This document shows positions 6,037-64,000 of a stretch of 64,000 nucleotides of DNA, piece by piece; within the stretch, counting starts at the first letter, position 1; every line of letters begins with the position of its first letter. The DNA comes from Rhynchonema sp. JSB1_4 (lineage: Eukaryota; Nematoda; Chromadorea; Monhysterida; Xyalidae). The notes below the pieces were generated by a model, which saw only the letters and a program-made list of their open reading frames with translations, ran no database searches and was not told the DNA's origin. Location of the stretch: assembly GCA_030248065.1 (NCBI GenBank), contig JASAMV010004933.1, positions 37,064 through 101,063 of the forward strand, in the 5' to 3' direction. A program made the position numbers and the translations under genes.

Positions 6037-18482
<12,446 letters not shown>

Positions 18483-24930: not shown

Positions 24931-24962
24931 TTCGGCATAATGTTGCCATCCTCACAATCTAT

Positions 24963-37389: not shown

Positions 37390-37439
<50 letters not shown>

Positions 37440-40400
37440 AAACAAAAAAAAACCCCAAAAAAAAAAAAAAAAAAAACAAAACAACACAAAAACAAAATTC
37501 AAGCATTTTCACACGAAATAAACACCAAAATGTCACATTTTGCGTCTTTGGAAACATTTGGTTCAAAGAAAATTTTCTCTCTCAAAATTCTTTTCTCAGC
37601 AAAACTGATGTTTTGACCCGTCAGTGTCGGCTGTCGGGTCCCAAAAACCCATCTGGAGGTACCCGACACCCGACACCTACACTTTTTTGGCACCCGACAG
37701 CCGACCTCTCTCTAGCCCTACTGCGCACTTCAGCCCCGTACATTACCCATAGCTTCCAACAACTAGAGACCACATGGGAGCAGCACCATTTTTAGAAGTT
37801 TAAAAGCGAATGCGTCGCAGTTTGAAATCGGCAAAGAAATTGGTTGTTTTTTTCCAAAAATTATTTGCCAAAAACGCACCATCATCGACAGCTTTCCTCA
37901 CTTCAGGCACATTGTCGAGCAGCCATCGCAACTTCAGTGCGCTGAAGTACGGATTGATCGGCAGGCCACACGTGGAACGGAAATGGTCCACTGACTTGCT
38001 TGGGGTCTTCAACGCCTGAATGTGACATTTGGGTCGTGGTATTGGCAGAAGATAAGATCTGTTCCTCCAGCGCCGGGCGGCATTTCGGAAATCAAAAATC
38101 AAATGCGAGAAGTTCGCATCACTAATTAAACAAACTGCTTCGAATCAGGCAAAAAAGCACAGCGTTAGCACAAACCATTTCGTGAGCCAGTTCAGTGGTG
38201 CGAGCGTCCATCCATACAATCGCGTTATACAACGCTTTGCCCGTATTCTTGTCCCACACAATCGTAGTCTCTGCAATCAAATCGAAAAGCAATTCTTCTA
38301 TTTTTACAATTAATCACGCAAAGTCGCTCTAGCGTGAAGTGAGAAAGCTTCACATCACACATGATATACCTCGTTGGTTCGTAATTCCAATGCCTTTAAT
38401 CTGTGCTAACGTGTACCCTTCTTTCTTCAACGCTTCACACGTTGTCTCAATACATTTGGCAGTTGCCGATAGCATTTCGTCAGGGTACATCTCGGCCCAG
38501 CCTGAAATCTTACAATTCGTTGTTAAGTTAACGATACAAAAAATGAAAAACCTCAGGAATGCATCGTGACAAAAACTAACGAATGAACAGACCTTCTTTC
38601 GGGTGCATTAGCTTGCATTCGATTTGGTGCATTGCCACAACCTGTAATGAACTACCATCTGAAACAGCGTCAGTTTAACAGTTGTCACACGATATCTACA
38701 CCAAAGCACGGGCGTCACAGTCCCTCGATCAGCAAGGTTTGGATCGCGCGTACAGTATGTGGCCCAGCGCTCAGGTTCAGTATCTCTTCTTCGCTGCACG
38801 GTATTCCCCCCAATTCTTCCCAAATTTCAACCGAAAAATACCTTTTTTATCAAAAATGGCAAAAAGTCGGCTAAAATCGATAAAGCTACAAAAATCAGCG
38901 CACTTCGCCCATTTTTTACCCATTTTTCAACGATGTGGCCGGAAGCCTCCGCACATAAAATACAAAAAGTGAAAACAGCCTAGCCAACGCGAAAACAGTC
39001 TACTCAAACAATGGTCCGGTGCGCCTCCAGCACATACAACATTCAGCGCCCAAACCGGAAGGAAAGTAGCCAAACTAAAATGAAAACAGTCTACTCAAAC
39101 AATGGTCCGGTGCGCCTCCAGCACATACAACATTCAGCGCCCAAACCGGAAGGAAAGTAGCCAAACTAAAATGAAAACAGTCTACTCAAACAATGGTCCG
39201 GTGCGCCTCCAGCACATACAACATTCAGCGCCCAAACCGGAAGGAAAGTAGCCAAACTAAAATGAAAACAGTCTACTCAAACAATGGTCCGGTGCGCCTC
39301 CAGCACATACAACATTCAGCGCCCAAACCGGAAGGAAAGTAGCCAAACTAAAATGAAAACAGTCTACTCAAACAATGGTCCGGTGCGCCTCCAGCACATA
39401 CAACATTCAGCGCCCAAACCGGAAGGAAAGTAGCCAAACTAAAATGAAAACAGTCTACTCAAACAATGGTCCGGTGCGCCTCCAGCACATACAACATTCA
39501 GCGCCCAAACCGGAAGGAAAGTAGCCAAACTAAAATGAAAACAGTCTACTCAAACAATGGTCCGGTGCGCCTCCAGCACATACAACATTCAGCGCCCAAA
39601 CCGGAAGGAAAGTAGCCAAACTAAAGTGAAAACAGTCTACTCAAACAATGGTCCGGTGCGCCTCCAGCACATACAACATTCAGCGCCCAAACCGGAAGGA
39701 AAGTAGCCAAACTAAAGTGAAAACAGTCTACTCAAACAATGGTCCGGTGCGCCTCCAGCACATACAACATTCAGCGCCCAAACCGGAAGGAAAGTAGCCA
39801 AACTAAGGTGAAAACAGTCTACTCAAACAATGGTCCGGTGCGAACCCTCCAGCACATACAACATTCAGCGCCCAAACCGGAAGGAAAGTAGCCTAACTAA
39901 AGTGAAAACAGTCTACTCAAACAATGGTCCGGTGCGCCTCCAGCACATACAACATTCAGCGCCCAAACCGGAAGGAAAGTAGCCTAACTAAAGTGAAAAC
40001 AGTCTACTCAAACAATGGTCCGGTGCGCCTCCAGCACATACAACATTCAGCGCCCAAACCGGAAGGAAAGTAGCCTAACTAAAATGAAAACAGTCTACTC
40101 AAACAATGGTCGGTGCGCCTCCAGCACATACAACATTCAGCGCCCAAACCGGAAGGAAAGTAGCCCAAAGGAACTCTACTAGAACAATCACCGGTGCGTT
40201 ACAGCACACATCAGCGCCCAAACCAAAAGACTAACTAAAGTGAAAACAGTCTACTCAAACAATGGTCCGGTGCGCCTCCAGCACATACAACATTCAGCGC
40301 CCAAACCGGAAGGAAAGTAGCCTAACTAAAGTGAAAACAGTCTACTCAAACAATGGTCCGGTGCGCCTCCAGCACATACAACATTCAGCGCCCAAACCGG

Positions 40401-43400
40401 AAGGAAAGTAGCCAAACTAAGGTGAAAACAGTCTACTCAAACAATGGTCCTGTGCGCCTCCAGCACATACAACATTCAGCGCCCAAACCGGAAGGAAAGT
40501 AGCCTAACTAAAGTGAAAACAGTCCTCCCACGTTTTGTGCCCTCCACACATCAACAACTAGTGAAAGCTTGCTTTCAAGTGAAAAAGCAGTTCTTAACAA
40601 TGGTCCGGTGCGCCTCCAGCACATACAGACATTCAGCGCGGCCGCCCCCCCCAAACCGGAAGGAAAGTAGCCTAACTAAAGTGAAAACAGTCTACTCAAA
40701 CAATGGTCCGTGCGCCTCCAGCACATACAACATTCAGCGCCCAAACCGGAAGGAAAGTAGCCTAACTAAAGTGAAAACAGTCTACTCAAACAATGGTCCG
40801 GTGCGCCTCCAGCACATACAACATTCAGCGCCCAAACCGGAAGGAAAGTAGCCAAACTAAAGTGAAAACAGCAACAATGGTCCGGTGCGCCTCCAGCCCA
40901 TACAACATTTAGCGCCCAAACCGGGAAGGGAAGTAGCTAACAAAGTGAAACCAGTCTACTCAAACAATGGTCAAGTGCGCCTCCAGCACATACAACATTC
41001 AGCGCCCAAACCGGAAGGAAAGTAGCCTAACTAAAGTGAAAACAGTCTACTCAAACAATGGTCCAGTGCGCATCCAGCACATACAACATTCAGCGCCCAA
41101 ACCGGAAGGAAAGTAGCCTAACTAAAGTGAAAACAGTCTAAACAATGGTCCCATCGCCTCCGGCTACAACTCAGCGCCGAACCGGAAGGAAAGTAGCCTA
41201 CAAGAAACGTCTCAAACAATCGTCCGGTGCGCCTCCAGCACATACAACATTCAGCGCCCAAACCGGAAGGAAAGTAGCCAAACTCAAGTGAAAACAGTCT
41301 TACTAAACAATGGTCCAGTGCGCCTCCGGGAATAGTGAAAACAGTCTACTCAAACAACGGCCGTCCAGTCCACCTCCAGCACATACAACATTCAGCGCCC
41401 AAACCGGAAGGAAAGTAGCCTAACTAAAGTGAAAACAGTCTACTCAAACAATGGTCCGGTTGGCGCCTCCAGCACATACAAGAGTAAACACCCAAACGAA
41501 AAGAAAGTAGCCTAACTAAAGTGAAAACAGTCTACTCAAACAATTGGTCCAGGCGTCCAGCACATACAACATTCAGCGCCCAAACCGGAAGGAAAGTAGC
41601 CTAACTAAAGTGAAAACAGTCTACTCAAACAATGGTCCGGTGCGCCTCCAGCACACAACATTCAGCGCCCAAACCGGAAGGAAAGTAGCCTAACTAAAGT
41701 GAAAACAGTCTACTCAAACAATGGTCAGGTGCGCCTCCAGCACGCATACAACATTCAGCGCCCAAACCGGAAGGAAAGTAGCCAAACTAAAATGAAAACA
41801 GTCTACTCAAACAATGGTCCAGTGCGCCTCCAGCACATACAACATTCAGCGCCCAAACCGGAAGGAAAGTAGCCAAACTAAAAGTGAAAACAGTCTACTC
41901 AAACAATGGTCCGGTGCGCCTCCAGCACATACAACATTCAGCGCCCAAACCGGAAGGAAAATAGCCAAACTAAAATGAAAACAGTCTACTCAAACAATGG
42001 TCCGGTGCGCCTCCAGCACATACAACATTCCAGCGCCCAAACCGGAAGGAAAGTAGCCGAACTAAAATGAAAACAGTCTACTCAAACATGGTCCGGTGCG
42101 CCTCCAGCACATACAACATTCAGCGCCCAAACCGGAAGGAAAGTAGCCAAACTAAAGTGAAAACAGTCTACTCAAACAATGGTCCGGTGCGCCTCCAGCA
42201 CATACAACATTCAGCGCCCAAACCGGACGGAAAGTAGCCAAACTAAAGTGAAAACAGGTCTTCTCAAACAATGGTCCGGTGCGCCTCAAGCACATTCAAC
42301 ATTAAGCACCCAAACCGGAAGGAAAGACAAAATCCAAGACAAAAGTGAAAACAGTCTACTCAAACAATGGTCCGGTGCGCCTCCAAAGTGAAAACAGTCT
42401 ACTCAAACAACGGTCCGGTGCGCCTCCAGCACATACGAAAACAGTCTACTCAAACAATGGTCCGGTGCGCCTCCAGCACATACAACATTCAGCGCCCAAA
42501 CCGGAGGGAAAGTAGCCTAACTAAAGTGAAAACAGTCTACTCAAACAATGGTCCAGAGCGCATCCAGCACATACAACATTCAGCGCCCAAACCGGAAGGA
42601 AAGTAGCCTAACTAAAGTGAAAACAGTCTACTCAAACAATGGTCCGGTGCGCCTCCAGCACATACAACATTCAGCGCCCAAACCGGAAGGAAAGTAGCCT
42701 AACTAAAGTGAAAACAGTCTACTCAAACAATGGTCCGGTGCGCCTCCAGCACATACAACATTCAGCGCCCAAACCGGAAGGAAAGTAGCCAAACTAAGGT
42801 GAAAACAGTCTACTCAATGAATGGTCCGGTGCGCCTCCAGCACATACAACATTCAGCGCCCAAACAGGAAGGAAAGTAGCCTAACTAAAGTGAAAACAGT
42901 CTACTCAAACAATGGTCCAGTGCGCCTCCAGCACATACAACATTCAGCGCCCAAACCGGAAGGAAAGTAGCCTAACTAAAGTGAAAACAGTCTACTCAAA
43001 CAATGGTCCAGTGCGCCTCCAGCACATACAACAACTAAAGTGAAAACAGTCTACTCAAACAATGGTCCAGTGCGCCTCCAGCACATACAACATTCAGCGC
43101 CCAAACCGGAAGGAAAGTAGCCTAACTAAAGTGAAAACAGTCTACTCAAACAATGGTCCGGTGCGCCTCCAGCACATACAACATTCAGCGCCCAAACCGG
43201 AAGGAAAGTAGCCTAACTAAAGTGAAAACAGTCCACTCAAACAATGGTCCGTTGCGCCTCCAGCACATACAACATTCAGCGCCCAAACCGGAAGGAAAGT
43301 AGCCAAACTAAAGTGAAAACAGTCTACTCAAACAATGGTCCTGTGCGCCTCCAGCACATACAACATTCAGCGCCCAAACCGGAAGGAAAGTAGCCTAACT

Positions 43401-46400
43401 AAAGTGAAAACAGTCTACTCAAACAATGGTCCGGTGCGAAACCACCCACCACCTCCAGCCCATACAACATTCAGCGCCCAAACCGGAAGGAAAGTAGCCT
43501 AACTAAAGTGAAAACAGTCTACTCAAACAATGGTCCAGTGCGCCTCCAGCACATACAACATTCAGCGCCCAAACCGGCTCAAAGGAGTGGTCACTTGAGC
43601 GCCAAACGGAAGGGAAAGTAGCTGGCTGAAATTGAAAACAGCAAAAATGGTCCTCCCTCAGCACGTCAACATCAGCGCCCAAAGGGGAAGGAAAGTAGCT
43701 AGCTAAAGGAAAACCATGGCCCGGTGCGCCTCCAGCACATACAACTTCAGCGCCCAAACCGGAAGGAAAGTAGCCTAACAAATGAAAACAGTCTACTCAA
43801 ACAATGGTCCAGTGCGCCTCCAGCACATACAACATTCAGCGCCCAAACCGGAAGGAAAGTAGCCTAACTAAAGTGAAAACAGTCTACTCAAACAATGGTC
43901 CAGTGCGCCTCCAGCACATACAACATTCAGCGCCCAAACCGGAAGGAAAGTAGCCTAACTAAAGTGAAAACAGTCTACTCAAACAATGAAAGGTCAGGTG
44001 CGCCTCTCCAGCACATACAACATTCAGCGCCCAAACCGGAAGGAAAGTAGCCTAACTAAAGTGAAAACAGTCTACTCAAGCAATGGTCCGGTGCGCCTCC
44101 AGCACATACAACATTCAGCGCCCAAACCGGAAGGAAAGTAGCCTAACTAAAGTGAAAACAGTCTACTCAAACAATGGTCCAGTGCGCCTCCAGCACATAC
44201 AACATTCAGCGCCCAAACCGGAAGGAAAGTAGCCTAACTAAAGTGAAAACAGTCTACTCAAACAATGGTCCAGTGCGCCTCCAGCACATACAACATTCAG
44301 CGCCCAAACCGGAAGGAAAGTAGCCTAACTAAAGTGAAAACAGTCTACTCAAACAATGGTCCAGTGAGTCTACTCAAACAATGGTCCAGTGCGCCTCCAG
44401 CACATACAACATTCAGCGCCCAAACCGGAAGGAAAGTAGCCTAACTAAAGTGAAAACAGTCTCCTCAAACAATGGTCCGGTGCGCCTCCAGCACATACAA
44501 CATTCAGCGCCAAAACCGGAAGGAAAGTAGCCTAACTAAAGTGAAAACAGTCAAACAATGGTCCAGTCCGCCCCCAGCACATACAACATTCAGCGCCAAA
44601 ACCGGAAGGAAAGTAGCCTAACTAAAGTGAAAACAGTCTACTCAAAAAATGGTTGCGGGCCCCTCCAGCACATACAACATTCAGCGCCCAAACCGGAAGG
44701 AAAGTAGGCTAACTAAAGTGAAAACAGTCTACTCAAACAATGGTCCGGTGCGCCTCCAGCACATACAACATTCAGCGCCCAAACCGGAAGGAAAGTAGCC
44801 AAACTAAAGTGAAAACAGTCTACTCAAACAATGGTCCGGTGCGCCTCCAGCACATACAACATTCAGCGCCCAAACCGGAAGGAAAGTAGCCAAACTAAAG
44901 TGAAAACAGTCTACTCAAACAATGGTCCGGTGCGCCTCCAAAGTGAAAACAGTCTACTCAAACAACGGTCCGGTGCGCCTCCAGCACATACAACATTCAG
45001 CGCCCAAACCGGAAGGAAAGTAGCCTAACTAAAGTGAAAACAGTCTACTCAAACAATGGTCCGGTGCGCCTCCAGCACATACAACATTCAGCGCCCAAAC
45101 CGGAAGGAAAGTAGCCTAACTAAAGTGAAAACAGTCTACTCAAACAATGGTCCAGTGCGCCTCCAGCACATAGCCTAACTAAAGTGAAAACAGTCAACTC
45201 AAACAATAGTCCGGTGCGCCTCCAGCACATACAACATTCAGCGCCCAAACCGGAAGGAAAGTAGCCTAACTAAAGTGAAAACAGTCTACTCAAACAATGG
45301 TCCGGTGCGCCTCCAGCACATACAACATTCAGCGCCCAAACCGGAAGGAAAGTAGCCTAACTAAAGTGAAAACAGTCTACTCAAACAACGGTCCGGTGCG
45401 CCTCCAGCACATACAAAAAAAAGCGGCCAAACCGTAAGGAAAGTAGCCTAACTACAGAGAAACCAGGCTAATCAAACCATGGTCCGGTGCGCCTCCAGCA
45501 CATACAACATTCAGCGCCCACCCCGGAAGGAAAGTAGCCTAACTAAAGTGAAAACAGTCTACTCAAACAATGGTCCTGTGCGCCTCCAGCACATAGCCTA
45601 ACTACAGTGTAAACAGTCAACTCAAACAATCGTCCGGTGCGAATCCTAACTAAAGTGAAAACAGTCTACTCAAACAATGGTCCAGTGCGCCTCCAGCACA
45701 TAGCCTAACTAAAGTGAAAACAGTCAACTCAAACAATAGTCCGGTGCGCCTCCAGCACATACAACATTCAGCGCCCAAACCGGAAGGAAAGTAGGCTAAC
45801 TAAAGTGAAAACAGTCTACTCAAACAATGGTCCGGTGCGCATCCAGCACATACAACATTCAGCGCCCAAACCGGAAGGAAAGTAGCCAAAGTAAAGTGAA
45901 AACAGTCTACTCAAACAATGGTCTGGTGCGCCTGCAGCACATACAACATTGCGGGAAAGGAGCTCCCTCTCGCCGGCACGGTGTGTGCCCCCGCGCTCAG
46001 GTGCAGTATCTCCCCGTCTCGTCTCTGGTACGGCATCTGCCCCAATTTTTCCAAAATTTCACCCCAAAAGTACCCTTTTTGTCCAAGATGGCCAAAAATC
46101 GGCCAAAATGGACTAAAAGCGCAAAAAAAGTTGCCGCAGTACTGTAAAGTGCTGATCACTTACTTGCCGAATCCATCAGAAATTTTAGCATTTTTGACGA
46201 AGCCTTTCAGAGAAGGCACAATCCTCCAAATGTCCGGCCCGTCCCGAACCAAACGCCCAAAATCGCGGGCCGGCCCGATTGCGGTGACTGATGGGGAGTT
46301 TCTGTTTCTCATGCGATACGCGCACGCTCACGGCAAGTCTTTGTTTTTGGCACCGGTTTAAAACGCTGATCTAATCTCACTAACTTTTCGTGTCTTTGAT

Positions 46401-46474
46401 GAAAACACCAAGAATCGACTGCTGCCAGTGCCCTGGTCGATCGAACCGATCAGCTGGTCTTCCACGTCGGGCAT
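29613..46474 (-). CDS. GK: Glycerol kinase (13 exons, 505 aa), exon 10 interrupted by a LINE
   Basis: Phosphorylates glycerol with ATP to sn-glycerol-3-phosphate; FGGY family. Inferred exons: 46385-46474, 38593-38641, 38370-38501, 38176-38270, 37880-38015, 34389-34538, 33917-34009, 33746-33817, 33281-33456, exon 10 = 32846-32859 plus 30825-30943, 30627-30742, 29938-30064, 29613-29761. Every junction phase fits. Without the LINE the total is 1518 nt ending in TAG, the usual family length. Landmarks: [15 protein letters not shown] (N-terminal phosphate-binding), [19 protein letters not shown] signature [46 protein letters not shown], second FGGY signature starting GVITGISG, and VDGGMTMNN. The ATG at 46474 is preferred because homology begins within ten residues. 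The LINE splits the exon 10 codons for DVEAL, so this copy should not make full-length protein unless the insert is removed. Confidence 0.95.
30944..32836 (+). mobile_element. 5'-truncated LINE inserted in coding exon 10 of glycerol kinase
   Basis: Inserted opposite to the gene, with exact 9-bp duplications AGCGCTTCA at 30935-30943 and 32837-32845. The reverse transcriptase frame is open on both sides of a nested DNA transposon (30944-31169 and 31668-32793, same frame). Motifs: [24 protein letters not shown], the catalytic SYADDF and a C-terminal Cys/His cluster (CPRCC...HLFRC) typical of Jockey-like elements. Stop at 32791-32793. The 3' end is a short TCAA repeat, used as a tail. The N-terminal endonuclease is missing. 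Confidence 0.93.
31178..31659. mobile_element. hAT-like element, CAGTGTTGGAGG family, inside the LINE
   Basis: A 482-bp element with ends CAGTGTTGGAGGT and ACCTCCAACACTG, flanked by exact 8-bp duplications ATCCCCAC (31170-31177 and 31660-31667). It splits the LINE reverse transcriptase just before SYADD. Sub-terminal GATACCTACTGTACC units separated by G runs occur twice on the left and four times on the right. The core has the dyad GCGCGCGTAGCGCGCG (31388-31403). Confidence 0.95.
32947..33239. mobile_element. Fold-back MITE with TATAGT ends (copy 4)
   Basis: Lies in glycerol kinase intron 9. Its ends TATAGTGAGTTTCTAATTTC and GAAATTAGAAATTTACTATA pair, followed inward by CGTTGCCTCATG and GAAGTCGAAGCAGGCAACAA. 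The centre includes a G run at 33130-33141. About 120 bp per arm. Confidence 0.85.
34796..37720. mobile_element. Long hAT-like element, TAGGGTTAGAG family (2.9 kb)
   Basis: Sits in glycerol kinase intron 5. Ends TAGGGTTAGATGTCGGG and CTCTCTCTAGCCCTA, flanked by exact 8-bp duplications CTGCGCAC (34788-34795 and 37721-37728). Outer parts match the short 2786 copy (GACACCCGACA, TTTTGCTCATTTGCATCA, AAATAAACACCAAAATGTC). An interior of about 2.3 kb (35200-37500) is extra. It is strongly AT-rich and, from about 36340, nearly free of G on the plus strand, ending in an A/C-only tract. No transposase motif was recognised in it. Confidence 0.85.
37195..37497. repeat. A-rich low-complexity tract
   Basis: About 300 bp made almost only of A with scattered C, including an A run of roughly 45. 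It lies at the right edge of the interior of the 34796-37720 element. Frames of poly-Phe/Lys type across it are artefacts of composition. Confidence 0.9.
38642..38984. other. Left flank of minisatellite in glycerol kinase intron 1
   Basis: Contains GCGCTCAGGTTCAGTATCTC and an AT-rich tract with AAATACC TTTTTTATCAAAAATGGC-like sequence. A related stretch lies on the other side of the array at 45960-46140, in the same orientation. It may be the edge of an element that carries the array. Confidence 0.5.
38985..45950 (+). repeat. 91-bp minisatellite array, left copy (about 76 units)
   Basis: Head-to-tail units of 91 bp, each with CAATGGTCCGGTGCGCCTCC, AGCACATACAACATTCAGCG and CCCAAACCGGAAGGAAAGTAG. 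Spacing was measured at 39011, 39102 and 39193. The first seven or so units are essentially identical; later ones carry substitutions, deletions and partial units. 91 is not a multiple of three, so open frames in it are incidental. It fills most of glycerol kinase intron 1. Confidence 0.97.
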
Positions 46475-46609
46475 TTTGTTGTTTTGGATCGTCCGGGGCG
46501 GGTCGTACTTTTGTTGCAATCTTGGATGATCACTCCTGCGTCCTGCCCGATCCGTCAGTCGATTGATTTTCAATTAAGCGGACCGACACCAAAAAATTGT
46601 ACCTGAGGC

Positions 46610-46990
46610 CAGTGTAGTTCCTGGTACGGCGCGGCGGTTGGTGTACCCTCCCCGTTTTTCCGTGCGGCGGTTAGTGTACCTCCCTGGGGGGGAAGGGGAG
46701 AAGACCCAAATTCACAAAAAAGTCACTTTTTGAGGTAGAAAATTGACCGATTTTTGGCCCTTTTTGAAAAAATTCTCCATAAAAAGGGTATTCTGGCGAC
46801 TTTTGACAACATCGACCTAAAAATCACCCATTTTAGGCCTAAAATGTTCATTTTAGGCCTAAAATGCCTATTTTAGGGCAAAAATTGAGGCGGTTAGTGT
46901 ACCTGGCGCGGCGGTTAGTGTACTAGTGTACCTTGGTCGCGGCGGTTAGTGTGCCTTGAGGGGGGACCCCCTCCCCCAGGAACTACACTG
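46610..46990. mobile_element. hAT-like element, CAGTGTAGTTCCTGG family (left arm)
   Basis: 381 bp, flanked by exact 8-bp duplications CCTGAGGC (46602-46609 and 46991-46998). GCGGTTAGTGTACC repeats lie near both ends, with GGCCTAAAATG repeats in the middle. It lies just upstream of the glycerol kinase start codon, about 130 bp away. Counterpart at 55829-56214. Confidence 0.93.
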
Positions 46991-47938
46991 CCTGAGGCAA
47001 AACAAACAGCATGTTTGTGTTTGTTAACAAACAGCAGCAAAGCTAACAATACAAATCTGTAGTTCCTGCAGCGCAGTGTAGTGGCAGGCCCCTATGTGTG
47101 GGAGCCTGGGAGGTAAGTATGATGCGGGGTTGGGACCGGAAGCGTGAGAGGTATGATTTTGGTAACCCAAAAAGGCGAAAAAACACCGTTTTTGTGATAC
47201 AATTTTGGCCAAAAATTGAGTTAAAAATAGTACTTTTTCAAATTTTTCGCCGAAAATCGCCTAAAAATAGGTATTATGGGTGGGTTTGCGCGCGGAGCGC
47301 GCGATTTTTGGGAAAATAAGGTCGAAAAACACCGATTTTTGCCTTAAAAAGGCATAAAATTGCTTGTGAGAGGTATGATTTGGAGTTGTGAGAGGTAAGT
47401 ACTCAACCCCCCCCCCCCCAGTGTTGGAGGTGGGGGGGGGGGGGGGGTGTGGGGGGGGGTAGCCCCGGGGGGGGGGGGGGGGGGTGGCCCCCCCAGTACA
47501 GTAGGTATCCCCCCTCGCCTGGTACAGTAGGTATCCCCCCGATGTTTGGCATCGTACAGTAGGTATCCCCCCCGATTTTCACCCCGGTACAGTAGGTATC
47601 CCCCCCCCCAGTGTGGTGGCAGGCCAATCGACCCAAGATACCCTAGGGGGGGGGAAGGTTTTGGACTTACTCGAGATACCCCCAGAGGCTACCCAAGATA
47701 CCCCTATGGTCCGTCAAAAGGCGAAAAAAGGCCGTTGTTTGCATGCAATTTTACTCCAAATTTGGCCTAAAAATGGGTATTTTTTGACATTTTTGCCGAA
47801 AATTGGCCTAAAATGACCATTTTTGGGTGTCTGCGCGCGGAGCGCGCGATTTTTGGGGGTCCCGAGGTCGAAAAACACCTATTTTTGCCTTTGAAAACCA
47901 TAAATCTACTTACTCGAGATACCCTTTAGGGTCGGCTC

Positions 47939-52290: not shown

Positions 52291-52617
52291 TTCCCGGCCC
52301 GTCCCGACATTGCCAATAATTACGAAAAAATCTGATTTTTCATCAAAAACCGCGGTGGTTTGTAAGGATTTGGCACGTTAATCTTATTTGCATTTTCTTG
52401 TTTGGAGCAGCAGAGGTGGGAATCGCCAATCGGGCCGGGTTACCTCGGCCCGGCCCGCCCGGCCCGGCCCGACGAGGTCCTGGAGTCGGCCCGGCCCGAC
52501 GAGGTCCTGGAGTCGGCCCGGCCCGACTTTGAAAAAAATCGGCCGGCCCCGATTTTTTTCGGCCCGACTTTTTCTGATTACCGTAAAATCTAAAATACAA
52601 GGGGGGCTGTATTTTTT
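52291..52617. repeat. GGGCCGGGCC-rich segment (right arm)
   Basis: Mirror of 50217-50540. Contains CAGAGGTGGGAATCGCC at about 52411, resembling a hAT terminus, followed by CGGCCCGGCCCG repeats. Confidence 0.6.
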
Positions 52618-53663: not shown

Positions 53664-53909
53664 ATGGCGTCAAAAGAGACCGATATTGATATTCTGAACC
53701 GACTAGGTTTTGCAAAGCTAGTCCGGGCGGACTCGCGCGGCAAAGAAACGCAGGTCCAATGCAAAATTTGCGACAAGAAACTGGCCTATTCGAGAGGATC
53801 AAGCATCACAATTTCGTATGCTACCCACGTGTCAATACTTGTACAATTGAGTGTATCTGATGTGATGGAGAATAATGATGTATCGGTGTCCTTCGCAAAT
53901 AACTCGTGA
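53664..53909 (+). pseudogene. N-terminal fragment of a hAT transposase (BED-like zinc finger)
   Basis: 81 codons starting MASKETDIDILNRLGFAKLV. It includes the VQCKICDKKLAYSRGSS stretch, which matches the C-x2-C half of a BED zinc finger. The expected His pair is not seen: the sequence diverges after GSS and stops. The fold-back at 53948 follows at once. The left-arm copy is frameshifted. Confidence 0.65.
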
Positions 53910-53947
53910 TTGATATTTCTCATTCTGTTCGCATGTCTTTCCTTTAA

Positions 53948-54590
53948 AGGGGAAATTGCACATTCCTAATCGCCTTTCAGGTTTTACAAGTGTTTAGACA
54001 GCAATGTGGGCATCACAAAAGTCAAATAATTTGGTACAAGCTCTCAAACATGTACCCGGGAGATTCCGTTTAAGACAAGCCACTGGGAATAAAATTCGGC
54101 GCGGACCGGCCGAATTTCTACCTGCGCATTCAGGCAAATTGCCTGATCAAAAAGCTCTCAAGGCGACAGAATGTTTCGCATGTTTTTTGAAACTCACTAA
54201 CTATAGAATTTCGCCTTTCTTTATATTTCGAATTTCAACGAATTGTTCCAGCGTGTCTGCTAAATGTTTCATGCTCTGCTTGTCACGCTGGAACAATTCG
54301 TCGAAATTCGAAATATAAAGAAAAGCGAAATTCTATAGTTAGTGAGTTTCAAGAATCGTGCGAAACATTCTGTCGCCTTGACAGCTTTTTGATCAGGCAA
54401 TTTGCCTGAATGCGCAGGTGGAAATTCGGCCGGTCCGCGCCGAATTTTCTTCCCGATTGTTCCCTTTGAACTGCTTCTCCTGGGTACATGTTTGAGAGTT
54501 TGTACCAAGTAATTGGCTTTCATGATGCCCACACAACTGTCTAAACACTTGTAGAGTTTGAAAGGCGATTAGGAATGTGCAATTTCCCCT
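53948..54590. mobile_element. TTAA-flanked fold-back element (right arm)
   Basis: 643 bp, ends AGGGGAAATTGCACATTCC and GGAATGTGCAATTTCCCCT, TTAA at 53944-53947 and 54591-54594. Mirror of 48246-48887. Long arms with a short AT-rich turn near 54240-54300. Confidence 0.8.
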
Positions 54591-55828
54591 TTAATCTGAT
54601 TCCAAAAAAATTGTTCTCTTGTTGTGTTGCACTGCTGCAGAATTGAAACTGAACCGTGTATGAGGAATTGGTCGTTCAAAACCAGCGCTTGGCGCTTTTT
54701 TATATGTTGTGGACAACTAAAGAACATAATCAGTACGAAATATATTTTTTTTCTAATAGTAGTTGGCTGCCGAAAAATTGGGGACCGACACTACCGACAC
54801 CTGAAAAAAACCGACACTTTTGTGGACCGACACCGACACCGACATTAGTAGTGTCGGTACCTACACCGACTTTTTTCCGACACCGACGCCGATCCCTAGA
54901 GCCGACCCCAAAGGGTATCTCGAGTAAGTAGATTTATGGTTTTCAAAGGCAAAAATAGGTGTTTTTCGACCTCGGGACCCCCAAAAATCGCGCGCTCCGC
55001 GCGCAGACACCCAAAAATGGTCATTTTAGGCCAATTTTCGGCAAAAATGTCAAAAAATACCCATTTTTAGGCCAATTTTGCAGTAAAATTGCATGCAAAA
55101 AACGGCCTTTTTTCGCCTTTTGACGGACCATAGGGGTATCTTGGGTAGCCTCTGGGGGGTATCTCGAGTAAGTCCGAAACCTTCCCCCCCCCCTAGGGTA
55201 TCTTGGGTCGATTGGCCTGCCACCACACTGACTGTACCGGGGTGAAAATCGGGGGGATACCTACTGTACCATGCCAAACATCGGGGGGGATACCTACTGT
55301 ACCAGGCGAGGGGGGATACCTACTGTACTGGGGGGGCGACCCCCCCCCCCCCCCCCCCCCGGGGCTACCCCCCCCCCAACCCCCCCCCCCCCCCCACCTC
55401 CAACACTGGGGGGGGGGTTGAGTACTTACCTCTCACAACTCCAAATCATACCTCTCACAAGCAATTTTATGCCTTTTTAAGGCAAAAATCGGTGTTTTTC
55501 GACCTTATTTTCCCAAAAATCGCGCGCTCCGCGCGCAAACCCACCCATAATACCTATTTTTAGGCGATTTTCGGCGAAAATTTTGAAAAAGTACTATTTT
55601 TACCTCAATTTTTGGCCAAAATTGTATCACAAAAACGGTGTTTTTTCGCCTTTTTGGGTTACCAAAATCATACCTCTCACGCTTCCGGTCCCAACCCCGC
55701 ATCATACTTACCTCCCATCCCACACATGGGCCTGCCACTACACTGCGCTGCAGGAACTACAGATTTGTATTGTTAGCTTTGCTGCTGTTTGTTAACAAAC
55801 ACAAACATGCTGTTTGTTTTGCCTCAGG

Positions 55829-56214
55829 CAGTGTAGTTCCTGGGGGGGGAGGGGGGTCCCCCCTAAGGTACACTAACCGCCGCGACCAAGGTACACTAGT
55901 ACACTAACCGCCGCGCCAGGTACACTAACCGCCTCAATTTGTGCCTAAAATAGGCAATTTTAGGCCTAAAATGAACATTTTTAGGCCTAAAATGGGTGAT
56001 TTTTAGGTCGATATTGTCAAAAGTCGCCAGAATACCCTTTTTATGGAGAATTTTTTCAAAAAGGGCCAAAAATCGGTCAAATTTTCTACCTCAAAAAGTG
56101 ACTTTTTCGTGAATTTGGGTCTTCTCCCCTTCCCCCCCAGGGAGGTACACTAACCGCCGCACGGAAAAACGGGGTAGGTACACTAACCGCCGCGCCGTAC
56201 CAGGAACTACACTG
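55829..56214. mobile_element. hAT-like element, CAGTGTAGTTCCTGG family (right arm)
   Basis: 386 bp, exact 8-bp duplications GCCTCAGG (55821-55828 and 56215-56222). Mirror of 46610-46990. Lies about 130 bp before the second glycerol kinase start codon, so it may overlap promoter sequence. Confidence 0.93.
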
Positions 56215-56350
56215 GCCTCAGGTACAATTTTTTTGGTGTCGGTCCGCTTAATTGAAAATCAATCGACTGACGGATCGGGCAGGACGCAGGAGTGATCATC
56301 CAAGATTGCAACAAAAGTACGACCCGCCCCGGACGATCCAAAACAACAAA

Positions 56351-57176
56351 ATGCCCGACGTGGAAGACCAGCTGATCGGTTCGATCGACCAGGGCACTGG
56401 CAGCAGTCGATTCTTGGTGTTTTCATCAAAGACACGAAAAGTTAGTGAGATTAGATCAGCGTTTTAAACCGGTGCCAAAAACAAAGACTTGCCGTGAGCG
56501 TGCGCGTATCGCATGAGAAACAGAAACTCCCCATCAGTCACCGCAATCGGGCCGGCCCGCGATTTTGGGCTTTTCTGGTCGGGAGCGGGCCGGACATTTG
56601 GAGGATTGTGCCTTCTCTGAAAGGCTTCGTCAAAAATGCTAAAATTTCTGATGGATTCGGCAAGTAAGTGATTAACAATTCACAGAATTGCGGCAACTTT
56701 TTCTTGCGCTTTTAGTCCATTTTGGCCGATTTTTGGCCATCTTGGACAAAAAGGGTACTTTTGGGTGTGGTTTTGGAAAAATTGGGGCAGATGCCGTACC
56801 AGAGACGAGACGGGGAGATATGCAGTGAGCGCGGGGGCACACACCGTGCCGGCGAGAGGGAGCTCCTTTCCCGCAATGTTGTATGTGCTGCAGGCGCACC
56901 AGACCATTGTTTGAGTAGACTGTTTTATTTTACTTTGGCTACTTTCCTTCCGGTTTGGGCGCTGAATGTTGTATGTGCTGGATCTGCAACTTACCATTGT
57001 TTGAGTAGACTGTTTTCACTTTAGTTAGCCTACTTTCCTTCCGGTGTGGGCGCTGTATGTTGTTTGTGCTGGAGGCTCTCCTGACTTTTGTTTGTGATGA
57101 CTGTTTTGACTTTTTTTTTTCTATGTGCTGGAGGCGCACTGGACCATTGTTTGAGTAGACTGTTTTCACTTTAGTT

Positions 57177-57210
<34 letters not shown>

Positions 57211-57526
57211 TTAATTTCCCCGGAGGCGCACCGGACTATTGTTTGAGTTGACTGTTTTCACTTTAGTTAGGCATTTTTTTTTTTTTTTTTTTTTTTCCCC
57301 CCTTATGTGCTGGAGGCGCACTGGACCATTGTTTGAGTAGACTGTTTTCACTTTAGTTAGGCTACTTTCCTTCCGGTTTGGGCGCTGAATGTTGTTTGTG
57401 CTGGAGGCGCACCGGACCATCGTTCGAGTAGACTGTTTTATTCTAGTTAGGCTACTTTTCCTTCCGGTTTGGGCGCTGAATGTTGTATGTGCTGGAGGCG
57501 CACCGGACCGTCGCCTTTTTTCGTAT

Positions 57527-57560
<34 letters not shown>

Positions 57561-57669
57561 ATGCTTCTTCTTGGATTCCATTTTCCGGCCCCCACCCTCC
57601 TTCCGGTTCGGCGCTGAATGTTGTATGTGCTGGAGGCGCACGGGGACTCTTTTCCCCCCCCCCCTGCTC

Positions 57670-57711
<42 letters not shown>

Positions 57712-60700
57712 ATCGCTCCAGGAGACTGTTTTATTTTTAGTTAGGCTACTTTCCTTCCGGTTTGGGCGCTAAATGTTGTATGTGCTGGAGGCGCACGGGA
57801 CCATGTGTGAGTAGACTGTTTTCATTTTCATTTGGCTACTTTCCTTCCGGTTTGGGCGCTCAATGTTGTATGTGCTGGAGGCGCACGGACCATTGTTTGA
57901 GTAGACTGTTTTCATTTTAGTTTGGCTATTTTCCTTCCGGTTTGGGCGCTGAATGTTGTACTGTCTGGAGGCGACCGGACCATTGTTCGAGGAAACAGTC
58001 TTTCATTTTAGTTAGGCTACTTTCCTTCCGGTTTGGGCGCTGAATGTTGTATGTGCTGGAGGCGCACCGGACCATTGTTTGAGTACTGTTTTCATTTAGT
58101 AGGCTTTCTTCCTTCGGTTTGGGCGCTCAATGTTGTATGTGCTGGAGGCGCACCGGACCATTGTTTTAGTAGACTGTTTTCAGTTTGGTTAGGCTTTTCC
58201 TTCCGGTTTGGGCGCTGAATGTCTCTGTGTGCCTGGAGGCGCACGGACGATTGTTTGAATAGACTGTTTTCACTTTAGTTAGGCTACTTTCCTTCCGGTT
58301 TGGGCGCTGAATGTTGTATGTGCTGGATGCGCACTGGACGATTGTTTGAGTAGACTGCTTCACTTTTTAGTTAGGCTACTTTCCTTCCGGTTTGGGGGCG
58401 CTGAATGTTGTATGTGCTGGAGGCGCACCGGACCATTGTTTGAGTAGACTGTTTTCACTTAGTTAGGCTACTTTCCTTCCGTTTGGGCGCTGAATGTTGT
58501 ATGTGCTGGAGGCGCACCGGACCGTTGTTTCGTAGACTGTTTTCACTTGAGAGGCCGGGGGGCGACCGGGACCATTGTTTGAGTCACCAGACCTGTTTTC
58601 ACTTTTCTCTTAACTTTGGCTACTTTCCCTTCCAGTTTTGGGCGCTGAATGTTGTATGTGCTTGGAGGCGCACCGGACCATTGTTTGAGTAGACTGTTTT
58701 CACTTTAGTTAGGCTACTTTCCTTCCGGTTTGGGCGCTGAATGTTGTATGTGCTGGAGGCGCACTGGACAGTTGTTTGAGTAGACTGTTTTCACTTTAGT
58801 TAGGCTACTTTCCTTCCGGTTTGGGCGCTGAATGTTGTATGTGCTGGAGGCGCACTGGACCATTGTTTGAGTAGACTGTTTTCACTTTAGTTAGGCTACT
58901 TTTCCTTCCGGTTTGGGCGCTGAATGTTTTATGGGCTGGAGGCGCACCGGACAATTGTTTGATTAGACTGTTTTCACTTTAGAATTGCTACTTTCCTTCC
59001 GGATAGGGCGCTGAATGTTGTATGTGCTGGAGGCGCACAGGACCATTGTTTGAGTGGAGCTGTTTTCACTTTCATTTTCGAGTTGGCTCTCCTTCCGGTT
59101 TGGGCGCTGAATGTTGTATGTGCTGGAGGCGCAACGGACCATTGTTTGAGTGGACTGTTTCCGCTTTCATTAGGCTACTTTCCTTCCGGTTTGGGCGCCT
59201 TGAATGTTGTATGTGCTGGAGGCGCACGGACGATTGTTTGAGTAGACTGTTTTCACCTTTAGTTAGGCTACTTTCCTTCCGGTTTGGGCGCTGAATGTTG
59301 TATGTGCTGGAGGCGCACTGGACCATTGTTTGAGTAGACTGTTTTCACTTAAAGTTGTTGTATGTGCTGGAGGCGCACTGGACCATTGTTTGAGTAGACT
59401 GTTTTCACTTTTTTTTATTTTTTTATATTTTAATATAAAAAAAAAAAAAAAAAAAAAAAAACACAAATTTTTAGTTAGCTTACTTTCCTTTACCCGGTTT
59501 GGGCGCTGAATGTTGTATGTGCTGGAGGCGCACTGGACCATTGTTTGAGTAGACTGTTTTCACTTTTAGTTAGGCTACTTTCCTTCCTGTTTGGGCGCTG
59601 AATGTTGTATGTGCTGGAGGCGCACCGGACCATTGTTTGAGTAGACTGTTTTCACCTTAGTTTGGCTACTTTCCTTCCGGTTTGGGTCCTGAATGTTGTA
59701 TGTGCTGGAGGCGCACCGGACCATTGTTTTGCGTAGACTGTTTTCACTTTTAGTTAGCCTACTTTCCTCCGGTTTGGGCGCTGAATGTTGTATGTGCTTG
59801 GAGGCAAAAAAAAAGCGACCGGGACCATTGTTTGAGTAGACTGTTTTCACTTAGTTAGGCTACTTTTTCCTTCCTTTTTTTTGCTGGTTTGAGGCGCTCT
59901 TTTTTTTTTTTTGATTTAATTGTTGTATGTGCTGGAGGCGCACCGGACCATTGTTTGAGTAGACTGTTTTCACTTAAAAGGTTAGGCTACTTTCCTTCCG
60001 GTTTGGGCGCTGAATGTTGTATGTGCTGGATGCGCACTGGACCATTGTTTGAGTAGACTGTTTTCACTTTCAGTTAGGCTACTTTCCTTCCGGTTTGGGC
60101 GCTGAATGTTGTATGTGCTGGAGGCGCACGGACCATTGTTTGAGTAGACTGTTTTCACTTTAGTTAGGCTACTTTCCTTCCGGTTTGGGCGCTGAATGTT
60201 GTATGTGCTGGAGGCGCACCTGGACCATTGTCCGAGTAGACTCACTGGACCATTGTTTGAAGAGACCGTTTTCACTTTAGTTAGCTACTTTCCTTTCCGG
60301 TTTGGGCGCTGAATGTTGTATGTGCTGGAGGCGCACTGGACCATTGTTTGAGTAGACTGTTTTCTTTAGTTAGGCTACTTTCCTTCCGGTTTGGGCGCTG
60401 AATGTTATATGTGCTGGAGGCGCACTGGACCATTGTTTGAGTAGACTGTTTTCACTTTAGTTGAGGCTACTTTCCTTCCGGTTTGGGCGCTGAATGTTGT
60501 ATGTGCTGGAGGCGCACCGGACCATTGTTTGAGTAGACTGTTTTCACTTTGGAGGCGCACCGGACCATTGTTTGAGTAGACTGTCCGGTCTGGGCGCTGA
60601 ATGTTGTATGTGCTGGAGGCGCACCGGACCATTGTTTGACTGTTTTCACTTTTAGTTAGGCTGCTTTCCTTCCGGTTTGGGCGCTGAATGTTGTATGTGC

Positions 60701-63634
60701 TGGAGGCGCACCGGACCATTGTTTGAGTAGACTGTTTTCACTTTAGTTAGGCTGCTTTCCTTCCGGTTTGGGCGCTGAATGTTGTATGTGCTGGAGGCGC
60801 ACCAGACCATTGTTTGAGTAGACTGTTTTCGCTACTTTCCTTCCGGTTTGGGCGCTGAATGTTGTATGTGCTGGAGGCGCACCAGACCATTGTTTGAGTA
60901 GACTGTTTTCACTTTAGTTAGGCTACTTTCCTTCCGGTTTGGGCGCTGAATGTTGTATGTGCTGGCCCGGTTGTTTGGGTGGGGTGTTTTCGCTGTATGT
61001 GCTGGAGGCGCACCAGACCATTGTTTGAGTAGACTGTTTTCACTTTAGTTGGGCTACTTTCCTTCCGGTTTGGGCGCTGAATGTTGTATGTGCTGGAGGC
61101 GCACCGGACCATTGTTTGAGTAGACTGTTTTCACTTTAGTTAGGCTGCTTTCCTTCCGGTTTGGGCGCTGAATGTTGTATGTGCTGGAGGCGCACCGGAC
61201 CATTGTTTGAGTAGACTGTTTTCACTTTAATATTGTTGGGCTACTTTCCTTCCGGTTTGGGCGCTGAATGTTGTATGTGCTGGAGGCGCACCCGGCCATT
61301 GTTTGAGTAGACTGTTTTCACTTTATTATTCTACTTCCTTCCGGTTTGGGCGCTGACTTTTGTATGTGCTGGAGGCGCACCGGACCATTGTTTGAGTAGA
61401 CTGTTTTCACTTTAGTTAGGCTGCTTTCCTTCCGGTTTGGGCGCTGAATGTTGTATGTGCTGGAGGCGCACCGGACCATTGTTTGAGTAGACTGTTTTCA
61501 CTTTAGTTAGGCTGCTTTCCTTCCGGTTTGGGCGCTGAATGTTGTATGTGCTGGAGGCGCACCGGACCATTGTTTGAGTAGACTGTTTTCACTTTAGTTA
61601 GGCTGCTTTCCTTCCGGTTTGGGCGCTGAATGTTGTATGTGCTGGAGGCGCACCAGGCCATTGTTTGAGTTGACTGTTTTCACTTTAGTTATTGTTGTAT
61701 GTGCTGGAGGCGCACCGGACCATTGTTTGAGTAGACTGTTTTCACTTTAGTTAGGCTACTTTCCTTCCGGTTTGGGCGCTGAATGTTGTATGTGCTGGAG
61801 GCGCACCGAACCATTGTTTGAGTAGACTGTTTTCACTTTAGTTAGGCTACTTTCCTTCCGGTTTGGGCGCTGAGTGTTGTATGTGCTGGAGGCGCACCGG
61901 ACCATTGTTTGAGTAGACTGTTTTCACTTTAGTTAGGCTACTTTCCTTCCGGTTTGGGCGCTGAATGTTGTATGTGCTGGAGGCGCACCGGACCATTGTT
62001 TGAGTAGACTGTTTTCACTTTAGTTAGGCTACTTTCCTTCCGGTTTGGGCGCTGAATGTTGTATGTGCTGGAGGCGCACCAGACCATTGTTTGAGTAGAC
62101 TGTTTTCACTTTAGTTAGGCTACTTTCCTTCCGGTTTGGGCGCTGAATGTTGTATGTGCTGGAGGCGCACCAGACCATTGTTTGTGTAGACTGTTTTCAC
62201 TTTAGTTAGGCTACTTTCCTTCCGGTTTGGGCGCTGAATGTTGTATGTGCTGGAGGCGCACCGGACCATTGTTTGAGTATGACTGTTTTCACTTTAGTTA
62301 GGCTGCTTTCCTTCCGGTTTGGGCGCTGAATGTTGTATGTGCTGGAGGCGCACCGGACCATTGTTTGAGTAGACTGTTTCCGCGTTGGCTAGGCTGTTTT
62401 CACTTTTTGTATTTTATGTGCGGAGGCTTCCGGCCACACCGTTGAAAAATGGGTAAAAAGTGGGCGAAGTGCGCTGATTTTTGTTGCTTTATCGATTTTA
62501 GCCAACTTTTTGCCATTTTTGATAAAAAAGGTATTTTTCGGTTGAAATTTGGGAAGAATTGGGTGGAATACCGTGCAGCGAAGAAGAGATACTGAACCTG
62601 AGCACTGGGCCACATACTGTACGCGCGATCCAAACCTTGCTGATTTTTTTATTTATTTTTATTTGAGTTTTTGCACCTCCAGTGCCAGGTGAATGCAAAC
62701 GCCCGCAGGCAATGTGGCAAATCCTGTTAGAAAAACATGAAAATCTAACGTGAATTGAAATCTAGCTGATCGAGGGGCTGTGACGCCCGTGCTTTGGTGT
62801 AGGACCTACACTGTGGGTATCGTGTGACAACTGTTAAACTGACGCTGTTTCAGATGGTAGTTCATTACAGGTTGTGGCAATGCACCAAATCGAATGCAAA
62901 CTAATGCACCCGAAAGAAGGTCTGTTCATTCGTCAGTTTTTGTCACGGTGTAGTGCATTCCTGAGGTTTTTCATTTTTTGTATCGTTCACCTAACAACGA
63001 ATTGTAAGATTTCAGGCTGGGCCGAGATGTACCCTGACGAAATGCTATCGGCAACTGCCAAATGTATTGAGACAACGTGTGAAGCGTTGAAGAAAGAAGG
63101 ATACACGTTAGCACAGATTAAAGGCATTGGAATTACGAACCAACGAGGTATATCATGTGTGATATGAAGCTTTCTCACTTCACGCTAGAGCGACTTTGCG
63201 TGATTAATTGTAAAACCAGAAGAATTGCCTTTCGATTTGATTGCAGAGACTACGATTGTGTGGGACAAGAATACGGGTAAAGCGTTGTATAACGCGATTG
63301 TATGGATGGACGCACGCACCACTGAACTGGCTCATCAAATGGTTTGTGCTAACGTTGTGCTTTTGGGCCTCAATCGAAGCAGTTTGTTTAATGAGCGATG
63401 AGAACTTCTCGCATTTGATTTTTGGTTTCCGAAATGCCGCCCGGAGCCGGAACAGATCTTATCTTCTGCCAATACCACTACCCAAATATCACATTCAGGC
63501 GTTGAAGACACCAAGCAAGTCAGTGGACCATTTCCGTTCCACGTGTGGCCTGCCGATCAATCCGTACTTCAGCGCACTGAAGTTGCGATGGCTGCTCGAC
63601 AATGTGCCTGAAGTGAGGAAAGCTGTCGATGATG
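56351..63634 (+). CDS. GK: Glycerol kinase, second copy, exons 1-5 (continues past window)
   Basis: Inverted duplicate of the first five exons: 56351-56440, 62871-62919, 63016-63147, 63247-63341, 63499-63634. Reading frame and splice sites are preserved in all five. The differences seen are few and mostly silent, with one replacement (His-Glu-Met in the left copy, His-Gln-Met here). It encodes [20 protein letters not shown] onward to the FGGY signature [13 protein letters not shown]. Intron 1 again holds the 91-bp array. Whether exon 10 of this copy carries the LINE cannot be seen. The two starts face away from each other across the palindrome axis. Confidence 0.92.
56875..62405 (-). repeat. 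91-bp minisatellite array, right copy (about 60 units)
   Basis: The same unit as the left array on the opposite strand, with about 1.4 kb less sequence. Units between 57100 and 60000 are interrupted by long T, C or A runs (for example 57180-57208, about 57655-57709 and 59440-59461), absent from the left array. The distal part (60700-62350) is regular. Confidence 0.95.
62645..62770 (-). mobile_element. Small retroposon-like insertion present only in the right arm
   Basis: 126 bp absent from the matching left-arm position (near 38722). GCTGAT is repeated at both edges (62639-62644 and 62765-62770). Read on the minus strand it ends in AAATAAAAATAAATAAAAAA, an A-rich tail typical of target-primed retroposition. 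The body is not recognised. Confidence 0.6.
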
Positions 63635-63798
63635 GTGCGTTTTTGGCAAATATTTTTTTGGCAAAAACAAACAATTTCTTTGCCGATTTCAAACTGCGAC
63701 GCATTCGCTTTTAAACTTCTAAAAATGGTGCTGCTCCCATGTGGTCTCTAATTGCTGGAAGCTATGGGTAATGTTCGGGGCTGAACGCCTGTGCGCAG

Positions 63799-64000
63799 TA
63801 GGGCTAGAGAGATGTCGGCTGTTGGGTGCCAAAAAAGTGTAGGTGTCGGGTGTCGGGTACCTCCAGATGGGTTTTTGGGACCCGACAGCCGACACCCGAC
63901 ACTTGCGGGTCAAAACATCAGTTTTGCTGAGAAAAGAATTTTGAGAGAGGAAATTTTCTTCGAACCAAATGTTTCCAAGGACGCAAAATGTGACATTTTG
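63799..64000. mobile_element. hAT-like element, TAGGGTTAGAG family (right arm, cut by window end)
   Basis: Begins TAGGGCTAGAGAGATGTCGG after GTGCGCAG (63791-63798), the reverse complement of the duplication at 37721-37728. Mirror of the right end of the 34796-37720 element, so the palindrome continues past this point. Confidence 0.85.

Follow-up and report, generated by a model that had tools for sequence, protein, structure and literature searches.

A stretch of 64,000 nucleotides (the window) was found to contain a giant palindrome around position 51419, which we consider most likely to be a product of the assembly and not a real giant inverted duplication. Judged from the sequence, its two arms probably represent the two haplotypes of one heterozygous eukaryotic locus that were written head to head by the assembler. 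A preliminary description of this DNA had offered two mechanisms, fold-back duplication and the head-to-head joining of haplotypes, and the copy number together with the divergence pattern favored the second of these.

Geometry and axis of the palindrome

An inverted repeat of more than 25 kb had been proposed, and the head-to-head repeat is indeed present, with a left arm of 13.9 kb (37526..51419, + strand) and a right arm of 12.6 kb (51420..64000, − strand), giving 26.5 kb. The arms were delimited by self-BLASTN and an end-to-end alignment, which also bore out the single axis at 51419. In the self-BLASTN, the segment 45647-57177 was 95.0% identical to its own reverse complement and 37526-38740 was 93.7% identical to 64000-62758; in the end-to-end alignment, position 37526 paired with position 64000. 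The landmarks are mirrored up to the window end as described before, but the arms are not identical. They differ by a 126-bp indel at position 38727 and in the length of a 91-bp tandem array, which spans ~7.0 kb in the left arm (38967..45950, + strand; self-BLASTN) and ~5.5 kb in the right arm (56875..62405, − strand), where it is interrupted by homopolymer runs. Alignment of the arms within the arrays is unreliable, and array divergence was left out of the argument.

The arms, with 9259 (left) and 9838 (right) distinct 25-mers, had 3963 exact 25-mers in common, compared to 332 or 239, depending on orientation, in a 14-kb control stretch at 10-24 kb, which rules out chance similarity. The structure is also not simply the long inverted repeat of a single transposon, as the arms hold part of a gene and a tandem array, and as the stretches 37.8-38.7 kb and 46.0-46.5 kb found full-length matches only here; the remaining genome matches of the latter were all short. 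The palindrome extends to the end of the contig (contig position 101063, window position 64000). Its right outer end lies beyond the contig and only the left outer flank is visible. Directly outside the left arm there is an A-rich low-complexity tract (37197..37497, + strand), and the right arm ends 28 bp before the counterpart of this tract.

At the axis (51399..51439), a perfect stem (51399-51413 / 51425-51439) encloses a loop of 11 nt. This loop is the one described previously, whereas the stem measures 15 bp instead of 11 bp. The short inverted repeat expected of a real fold-back duplication is present, and it would be equally expected of a fold-back read. The axis DNA is not unique, as it sits at an internal G-run/C-run of an abundant interspersed element, for which at least 42 matches were obtained in the genome when 40 of the 1954 first-look candidates had been scored. 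With element boundaries taken from seven other contigs, the left copy extends over 50973..51427 (+ strand) and starts with CAGTGTAGTACTTGG, and the right copy extends over 51412..51866 (− strand), the two overlapping at the axis. CAGTGTAGTACTTGG was found at the element start in six and CCAAGTACTACCCTG at the element end in five of the seven copies from other contigs. Both copies at the axis are without the same terminal repeat, the left one being cut at the internal G-run/C-run.

In its size of ~0.5 kb, its abundance, and its short terminal inverted repeats the element resembles MITE-like non-autonomous terminal-inverted-repeat elements, from which it differs by internal repeated motifs and the G-run/C-run. 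It appears transposon-like. The fold predicted for one intact copy contained a G/C stem of 9 bp and had an energy of −10.4 kcal/mol; shuffled sequences averaged −6.3, 5 of 200 being at least as good, and the centroid structure retained a 3-bp stem only. It is plausible that the internal G-run/C-run of this abundant element is the short-inverted-repeat trigger.

Glycerol kinase and copy number in the assembly

The 5′ part of a glycerol kinase gene had been described as duplicated head to head. One copy was in fact found in each arm, and domain matches confirmed the identity of the gene. In the left arm, exon stretches at 38368-38526, 38176-38271, and 37875-38015 (37875..38526, − strand) matched PF00370, and the joined exon cores matched TIGR01311 and PDB entries, the best of which were glycerol kinases. 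This copy is continuous with single-copy downstream exon stretches outside the arm (34387-34527, 30778-30957, and 29936-30064; 29936..34527, − strand). The 5′ exon stretches of the second copy are located in the right arm (62994..63630, + strand; contig coordinates 100057-100209, 100309-100404, and 100577-100693), where the gene is truncated by the contig end. The assembly contains the 5′ part twice, both times on this contig, and the 3′ part once.

Both FGGY_N and FGGY_C domains were found, and glycerol kinase models matched best. TIGR01311 was the best of 10 models with 299.7 bits on the joined exon cores, a score below its curated cut-off of 590 for a query consisting only of the exon cores found. 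Among the best 120 of 6934 matches in a protein search, named animal glycerol kinases ranked highest, with identities of ~37-55% across the aligned part, and bacterial glycerol kinases came after them; the locus is taken to be probably that of an animal. All seven FGGY_N matches in the assembly fall on this contig. Three other contigs also had FGGY_C matches. In the loci around these, compared over ~1.5 kb to either side, no DNA similarity to this glycerol kinase was found; one of the three shared only dispersed repeats with the window.

A 901-base query from the arm (37.8-38.7 kb) gave two genome matches, both on this contig, and a query from the flank (34.2-35.9 kb) gave one full-length match among 53. 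The arm stretches tested are thus present in two copies on this contig, with no further copy elsewhere in the assembly, and for the flank left of 37.5 kb no second haplotype was found in the assembly. Near-identical pairs on separate contigs, which we infer to be alleles, do occur (C1465/C5537, 98.8%; C3046/C583, 97.5%; C3046/C768, 94-97%; C1465/C2090, 92.7%).

Four family searches yielded 71 contig entries by hand count (PF00118, 15; PF00270, 25; PF00227, 13; PF00004, 18; C2937 under two families). Four other contigs (C264, C2818, C1923, and C5208) carried the same gene segment twice, in all four cases inverted, which is weak evidence alone because it would occur by chance in 1 of 16 cases. 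Scoring covered 31 of 129 candidates for PF00270 and 19 of 116 for PF00004, so that the pair counts there are lower bounds. Two partly overlapping stretches of the same orientation on C5562 (AAA) were assumed to belong to a two-domain protein and not counted as a direct pair. C264 is inverted end to end around a 4.5-kb spacer, and C1923 also has a spacer, unlike the palindrome at 51419. In C5208, gaps are the only differences in two stretches close to the midpoint (18 gaps in 275 columns and 14 gaps in 206 columns), and a large part of the center fails to align between the arms. C2818 is bordered by unlike sequence on both sides, and its inner arms have diverged strongly; by its sequence it looks like a genuine old inverted duplication, and real inverted duplications therefore probably exist in this genome.

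Divergence between the arms

The arms are diverged, with 1.0-3.75% substitutions in 10 of 14 bins. The four outlying bins were the array (7.6%, alignment unreliable), 49600-50000 (9.1%), 50800-50972 (12.5%), and the final 120 bp leading up to the axis (23.5%; 28 of 119 sites). The bins 49600-50000 and 50800-50972 lie partly at G- and C-runs, and the rise is not limited to the axis. In the segment 37526-38730, 45 of 1201 sites carried substitutions (3.75%; 25 transitions and 20 transversions), and the arms differed by six indels, none of which was a 1-bp indel. Differences were found at 7 of 396 sites in exon stretches versus 38 of 803 remaining sites. According to our reading, five of the seven exon differences are synonymous, one is an E/Q exchange, and one lies at an exon edge. 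Both glycerol kinase copies are apparently under constraint.

Private changes of each arm were counted only for transposon stretches with outgroup copies. The outgroup copies were a non-random selection of high-scoring matches (seven loci from other contigs for the axis element). Disagreement among outgroups led to the removal of 22 of the 134 columns at 46.0 kb, 8 of the 655 at 48.2 kb, and 4 of the 455 in the axis element. Across the 1378 columns of three young transposon stretches between 48.1 and 49.6 kb (48100-48248 being polarized by a single outgroup), the right arm had no private change and five sites carried the same change in both arms. The left arm had 32 private changes (18 transversions, 9 indels, and 5 transitions), mostly clustered, which we interpret as consensus error. 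At 46001-46128, the right arm is the noisier one (six private changes versus none in the left arm), and polishing toward the family consensus could mimic a clean right arm; both points count against the misjoin reading. In the axis element, both arms depart privately from the element family (18 changes in the right and 27 in the left arm), and we read the divergence jump at the axis as a poor consensus there. Overall, the divergence looks allelic, and near-zero and ~5% divergence inside 13 kb fit recombining alleles.

Origin of the palindrome and its consequences

Several observations favor a misjoin of haplotypes: the tested arm stretches have two copies, both here, and the tested flank has one; two distinct versions exist that both appear constrained; and the divergence is uneven, allele-like, and jumps at the axis. 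In agreement with this reading, the assembly keeps near-identical pairs elsewhere and other contigs carry inverted gene pairs. The contig also stops 28 bp from the A-rich tract, at which the second copy should meet the flank again; the same contig end would result from a break at this tract or from the collapse of a real palindrome with identical distal parts. We propose that both haplotypes share a single path, by an assumed collapse, in the flank left of 37.5 kb, and that they would separate close to the A-rich tract and both reach the axis element. There, the fold-prone G-run/C-run might either end both paths or yield a fold-back read, and the contig would then return along the second haplotype, meet the already used flank, and stop. 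A misjoin mediated by a repeat would seldom connect a locus with its own allele, so that a fold-back read or a similar local bridge must be assumed as well; this and the assumed collapse of the flank count against the misjoin.

The genuine-looking inverted duplication on C2818 argues against a misjoin and for a real inverted duplication, in which a fork would have stalled, or the DNA broken, at the element's G-run/C-run, so that a strand folded back and copied itself. The short stem, the small loop, and the foldable G-run/C-run are as known for fold-back inverted duplication at a short inverted repeat; the junction lies at a sequence able to form the 9-bp snap-back hairpin, and the same end is missing from both element copies. 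Differences from that process are that the far end lies outside the contig, that the divergence is uneven, and that the contig stops in the second arm. The arms would have to be at least 12.6 kb long, with unique parts diverged up to ~5% and others homogenized by gene conversion, which would be needed for near-zero divergence at 48-49.6 kb beside ~5% at 37.5-38.7 kb. The constrained exons would imply a complete second gene, yet the assembly holds one 3′ half, and the raised divergence at the axis would be left unexplained. Long near-perfect palindromes are generally unstable, which also counts against this explanation. We regard a real inverted duplication as unlikely, if clearly conceivable, and its specific form, in which snap-back replication at the G-run/C-run hairpin of the abundant transposon-like element would have created a real giant palindrome, as more doubtful still.

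A palindromic read of one molecule (nanopore fold-back, missed adapter, or whole-genome-amplification chimera) that entered the contig would produce the same geometry and would suit the one-sided noise of the left arm at 48-49.6 kb. Such reads are documented in ONT and MDA data: fold-back reads, which reportedly can tangle assembly graphs, made up ~0.55-0.6% of ONT genomic reads and virtually none of the PacBio HiFi reads of the same study (PMC12870357). After MDA, about one third of mitochondrial reads were palindromic (PMC13265396). The arms of one molecule should match except for errors, whereas the arms here differ in ways that are not error-like: 3.75% substitutions without 1-bp indels, the 126-bp indel, and arrays of 7.0 versus 5.5 kb would be unexpected. 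One-molecule fold-back is thereby ruled out as the sole cause, and a library artifact of this kind is very improbable; in the haplotype misjoin, a fold-back read may have served as the bridge.

A comparable case is Adineta vaga, for which 25 same-scaffold homologous blocks are reported in the 2013 assembly (23 palindromes and 2 tandem; PMC5916493), and a single palindrome in a later assembly whose authors note its own low N50 (PMC7749112). The likeness is that homologous copies share a scaffold and mostly face each other head to head; the blocks there comprise several genes and were initially read as biology, whereas part of one gene is involved here and the turn lies at a transposon-like hairpin. 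The change between the two assemblies illustrates that such structures are open to over-reading.

If the palindrome were real, it would mean that large palindromes in a eukaryotic genome can arise from transposon hairpins. Should the element repeatedly trigger fold-back inversions, many gene-bearing palindromes, partly kept alike by gene conversion, would be expected; C264, C2818, C1923, and C5208 would be candidates, an axis within the element being shown only for the palindrome at 51419. If, as we favor, haplotypes were misjoined, the contig should be split near 51419, with the right arm taken as the other haplotype. Gene counts, duplication claims, and synteny derived from this assembly would then need the same check, given the four further contigs with inverted gene pairs.

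Geometry and gene content of the palindrome

The window corresponds to C3026:37064-101063 in an assembly of 203.9 Mb and 5747 contigs, and its position 64000 is the contig end. Self-comparison confirmed the inverted repeat claimed in the preliminary description, whose length of more than 25 kb was corrected to about 26.5 kb overall. In the end-to-end alignment, position 37526 paired with 64000 and the arms met at an axis at 51419/51420. The 11-nt loop described for the centre was found again, with a stem of 15 bp instead of 11 bp. The arms had 3963 exact 25-mers in common, compared to 332 (239 in the other orientation) in a 14-kb control stretch.

The reported doubling of the 5′ half of the glycerol kinase gene also held, as the same three 5′ exon stretches were found in both arms. 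Domain matches to FGGY_N/FGGY_C, all on the minus strand, were located in the left arm at 38368-38526, 38176-38271, and 37875-38015 and in the left flank, the sequence left of 37.5 kb, at 34387-34527, 30778-30957, and 29936-30064. The left copy thus exits the palindrome and is completed outside, and the right copy consists of the three stretches of the left arm followed by the contig end. The joined exon cores matched glycerol kinase best, both among NCBIfam models and among PDB chains, and named animal glycerol kinases ranked top among the protein matches listed (best 120 of 6934). All seven FGGY_N matches in the assembly lay on C3026, as did both matches of a 901-base arm query and both full-length matches of a 501-base arm query. 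For the left flank at 34.2-35.9 kb, 1 of 53 assembly matches was full length and the remainder were short. FGGY_C matches also lay on three other contigs, where the surrounding sequence (about 1.5 kb to either side) had no DNA similarity to the C3026 gene; one of these three loci had dispersed repeats, and nothing more, in common with the window.

The left flank also contains a tandem array at 22668-23739 (187-bp unit, 5.8 copies) and long reading frames at 24941-26083 and 30888-32793, which, judged by eye from their motifs, resemble non-LTR reverse transcriptases.

Divergence between the arms and the element at the axis

At 37526-38730 the arms differed by 45 substitutions at 1201 sites (25 transitions, 20 transversions) and by 6 indels, all longer than 1 bp. 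Differences affected 7 of 396 sites in the conserved glycerol kinase stretches and 38 of 803 in the remainder; we read five of the former as synonymous, one as an exchange of E to Q, and one as lying at an exon edge. At 47-49.6 kb, 8 transitions were found versus 32 transversions. Arm differences were polarised with transposon copies from other contigs as outgroups at 48100-48248 (149 columns), 48242-48892 (647), and 49020-49600 (582), yielding no private changes in the right arm, 32 in the left, and 5 common to both. The left-arm changes were largely clustered, which in our reading points to consensus error. Possibly the right arm was instead overwritten with the family consensus during polishing, but the changes common to both arms argue against this. 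The opposite pattern occurred at 46001-46128, with no private changes in the left arm, 6 in the right, and 12 in common. Divergence was raised at 49600-50000 (9.1%) and 50800-50972 (12.5%), some of it falling on G- and C-runs, and the 120 bp next to the axis showed differences at 28 of 119 sites. Homopolymer runs (T33, T31, C56, A25), which resemble sequence noise, interrupt a 91-bp array in the right arm at 57180-57709 and 59437-59461.

The final 450 bp of either arm belong to an abundant transposon-like element with at least 42 matches (40 of 1954 first-look candidates scored). This axis element (50973-51866; copies on many contigs) is about 0.5 kb long and is bounded by short terminal inverted repeats; inside it lie repeated TTGACGATAGATAG motifs and a G-run/C-run able to fold as a hairpin. 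Seven copies from other contigs were 97.7-99.6% alike; six start with CAGTGTAGTACTTGG and five end with CCAAGTACTACCCTG, the exceptions differing by 1-2 bases in each case. The CCAAGTACTACCCTG end stands beyond the internal G-run and C-run, and both window copies break off at these runs without it. Both also have three departures from the family in common, so that they probably descend from a single insertion. Private changes numbered 27 in the left and 18 in the right copy and lay mostly near the axis (per 100-base bin: left 1, 4, 4, 16, 2; right 1, 1, 1, 6, 9). The G-run/C-run of one intact copy had a predicted folding energy of -10.4 kcal/mol as single-stranded DNA (shuffle mean, -6.3; 5 of 200 shuffles folded as well), the centroid being a 3-bp stem only.

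Other paired loci in the assembly

At other loci the assembly seems to have retained both versions. Pairs of nearly identical sequence located on different contigs were C1465/C5537 (98.8%), C3046/C583 (97.5%), and C3046/C768 (94-97%), and C1465/C2090 formed a more distant one (92.7%); we take all four to be alleles. C3007 and C1819 (30 and 23 kb; loci L050 and L051), 98.3% alike over 3.3 kb, are possibly unmerged haplotypes.

Four family searches (71 contig entries) revealed a gene segment present twice on one contig in four cases, all inverted. C264 (22592 bp; L052-L056, L065, L066) has two head-to-head copies of a CCT chaperonin gene within an inverted repeat spanning the whole contig (2-799 with 22592-21795 at 99.5%) around a 4.5-kb spacer (9457-13941). 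C2818 (L064, L067, L068) carries an inverted DEAD-box gene pair in arms at 2813-10496 and 10705-18782. Most bins at about 4.7-7.8 kb were 96-100% alike in ungapped columns, 10-30% of aligned sites differed in the inner 7.8-10.5 kb (17-30% and 10-23% in two alignments), and no match was found between the outer flanks. Given the unlike flanks and diverged inner parts, this is probably a genuine old duplication with homogenised outer arms. On C1923 (L073-L075) a proteasome gene segment occurs twice, inverted, 37 kb apart and 98.7% alike, and no inverted repeat was found at the midpoint. C5208 (L076-L078) has an inverted AAA gene pair with gene regions 93.6% alike. Near its midpoint, two stretches differ by gaps alone (18 in 275 columns; 14 in 206); all missing bases in the first and the majority in the second fall on one side, as would be seen in unpolished reads. 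Two shorter stretches have 4 and 2 mismatches, and much in between was unalignable. Likely real and doubtful inverted pairs therefore both exist in this assembly.

Origin of the palindrome

The palindrome question in Adineta vaga has reportedly been settled by chromosome-level work on that species. Its 2013 assembly was reported to have homologous blocks head to head, and a re-analysis counted 23 palindromes plus 2 tandem pairs in it and none in A. ricciae (PMC5916493). A later A. vaga assembly is described as containing a single palindrome, its low N50 being conceded by the authors (PMC7749112). A survey of parthenogenetic genomes lists palindromes for several of them and states that artificial ones can arise from erroneous scaffolding (PMC7953838).

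The palindrome studied here is present as sequence, but as biology it is most likely unreal. The assembly has this locus otherwise as a single copy, and C3026 most likely carries it in two diverged versions, of which one is complete and the other stops at the point at which the flank would follow. The diverged versions, the contig end at the flank, the hairpin-prone junction, and the apparent retention of both versions at other loci together suggest that the contig follows one haplotype outward and returns along the other, the turning point being a hairpin-prone repeat with raised divergence. Our guess is that a fold-back read at the G-run/C-run bridged the haplotypes, since such reads have been described both for nanopore libraries of genomic DNA and for DNA subjected to whole-genome amplification (PMC12870357, PMC13265396). 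The occurrence of both near-zero and roughly 5% divergence inside 13 kb suits recombining alleles. A real inverted duplication, which we regard as unlikely though worth considering, would need gene conversion to produce it.
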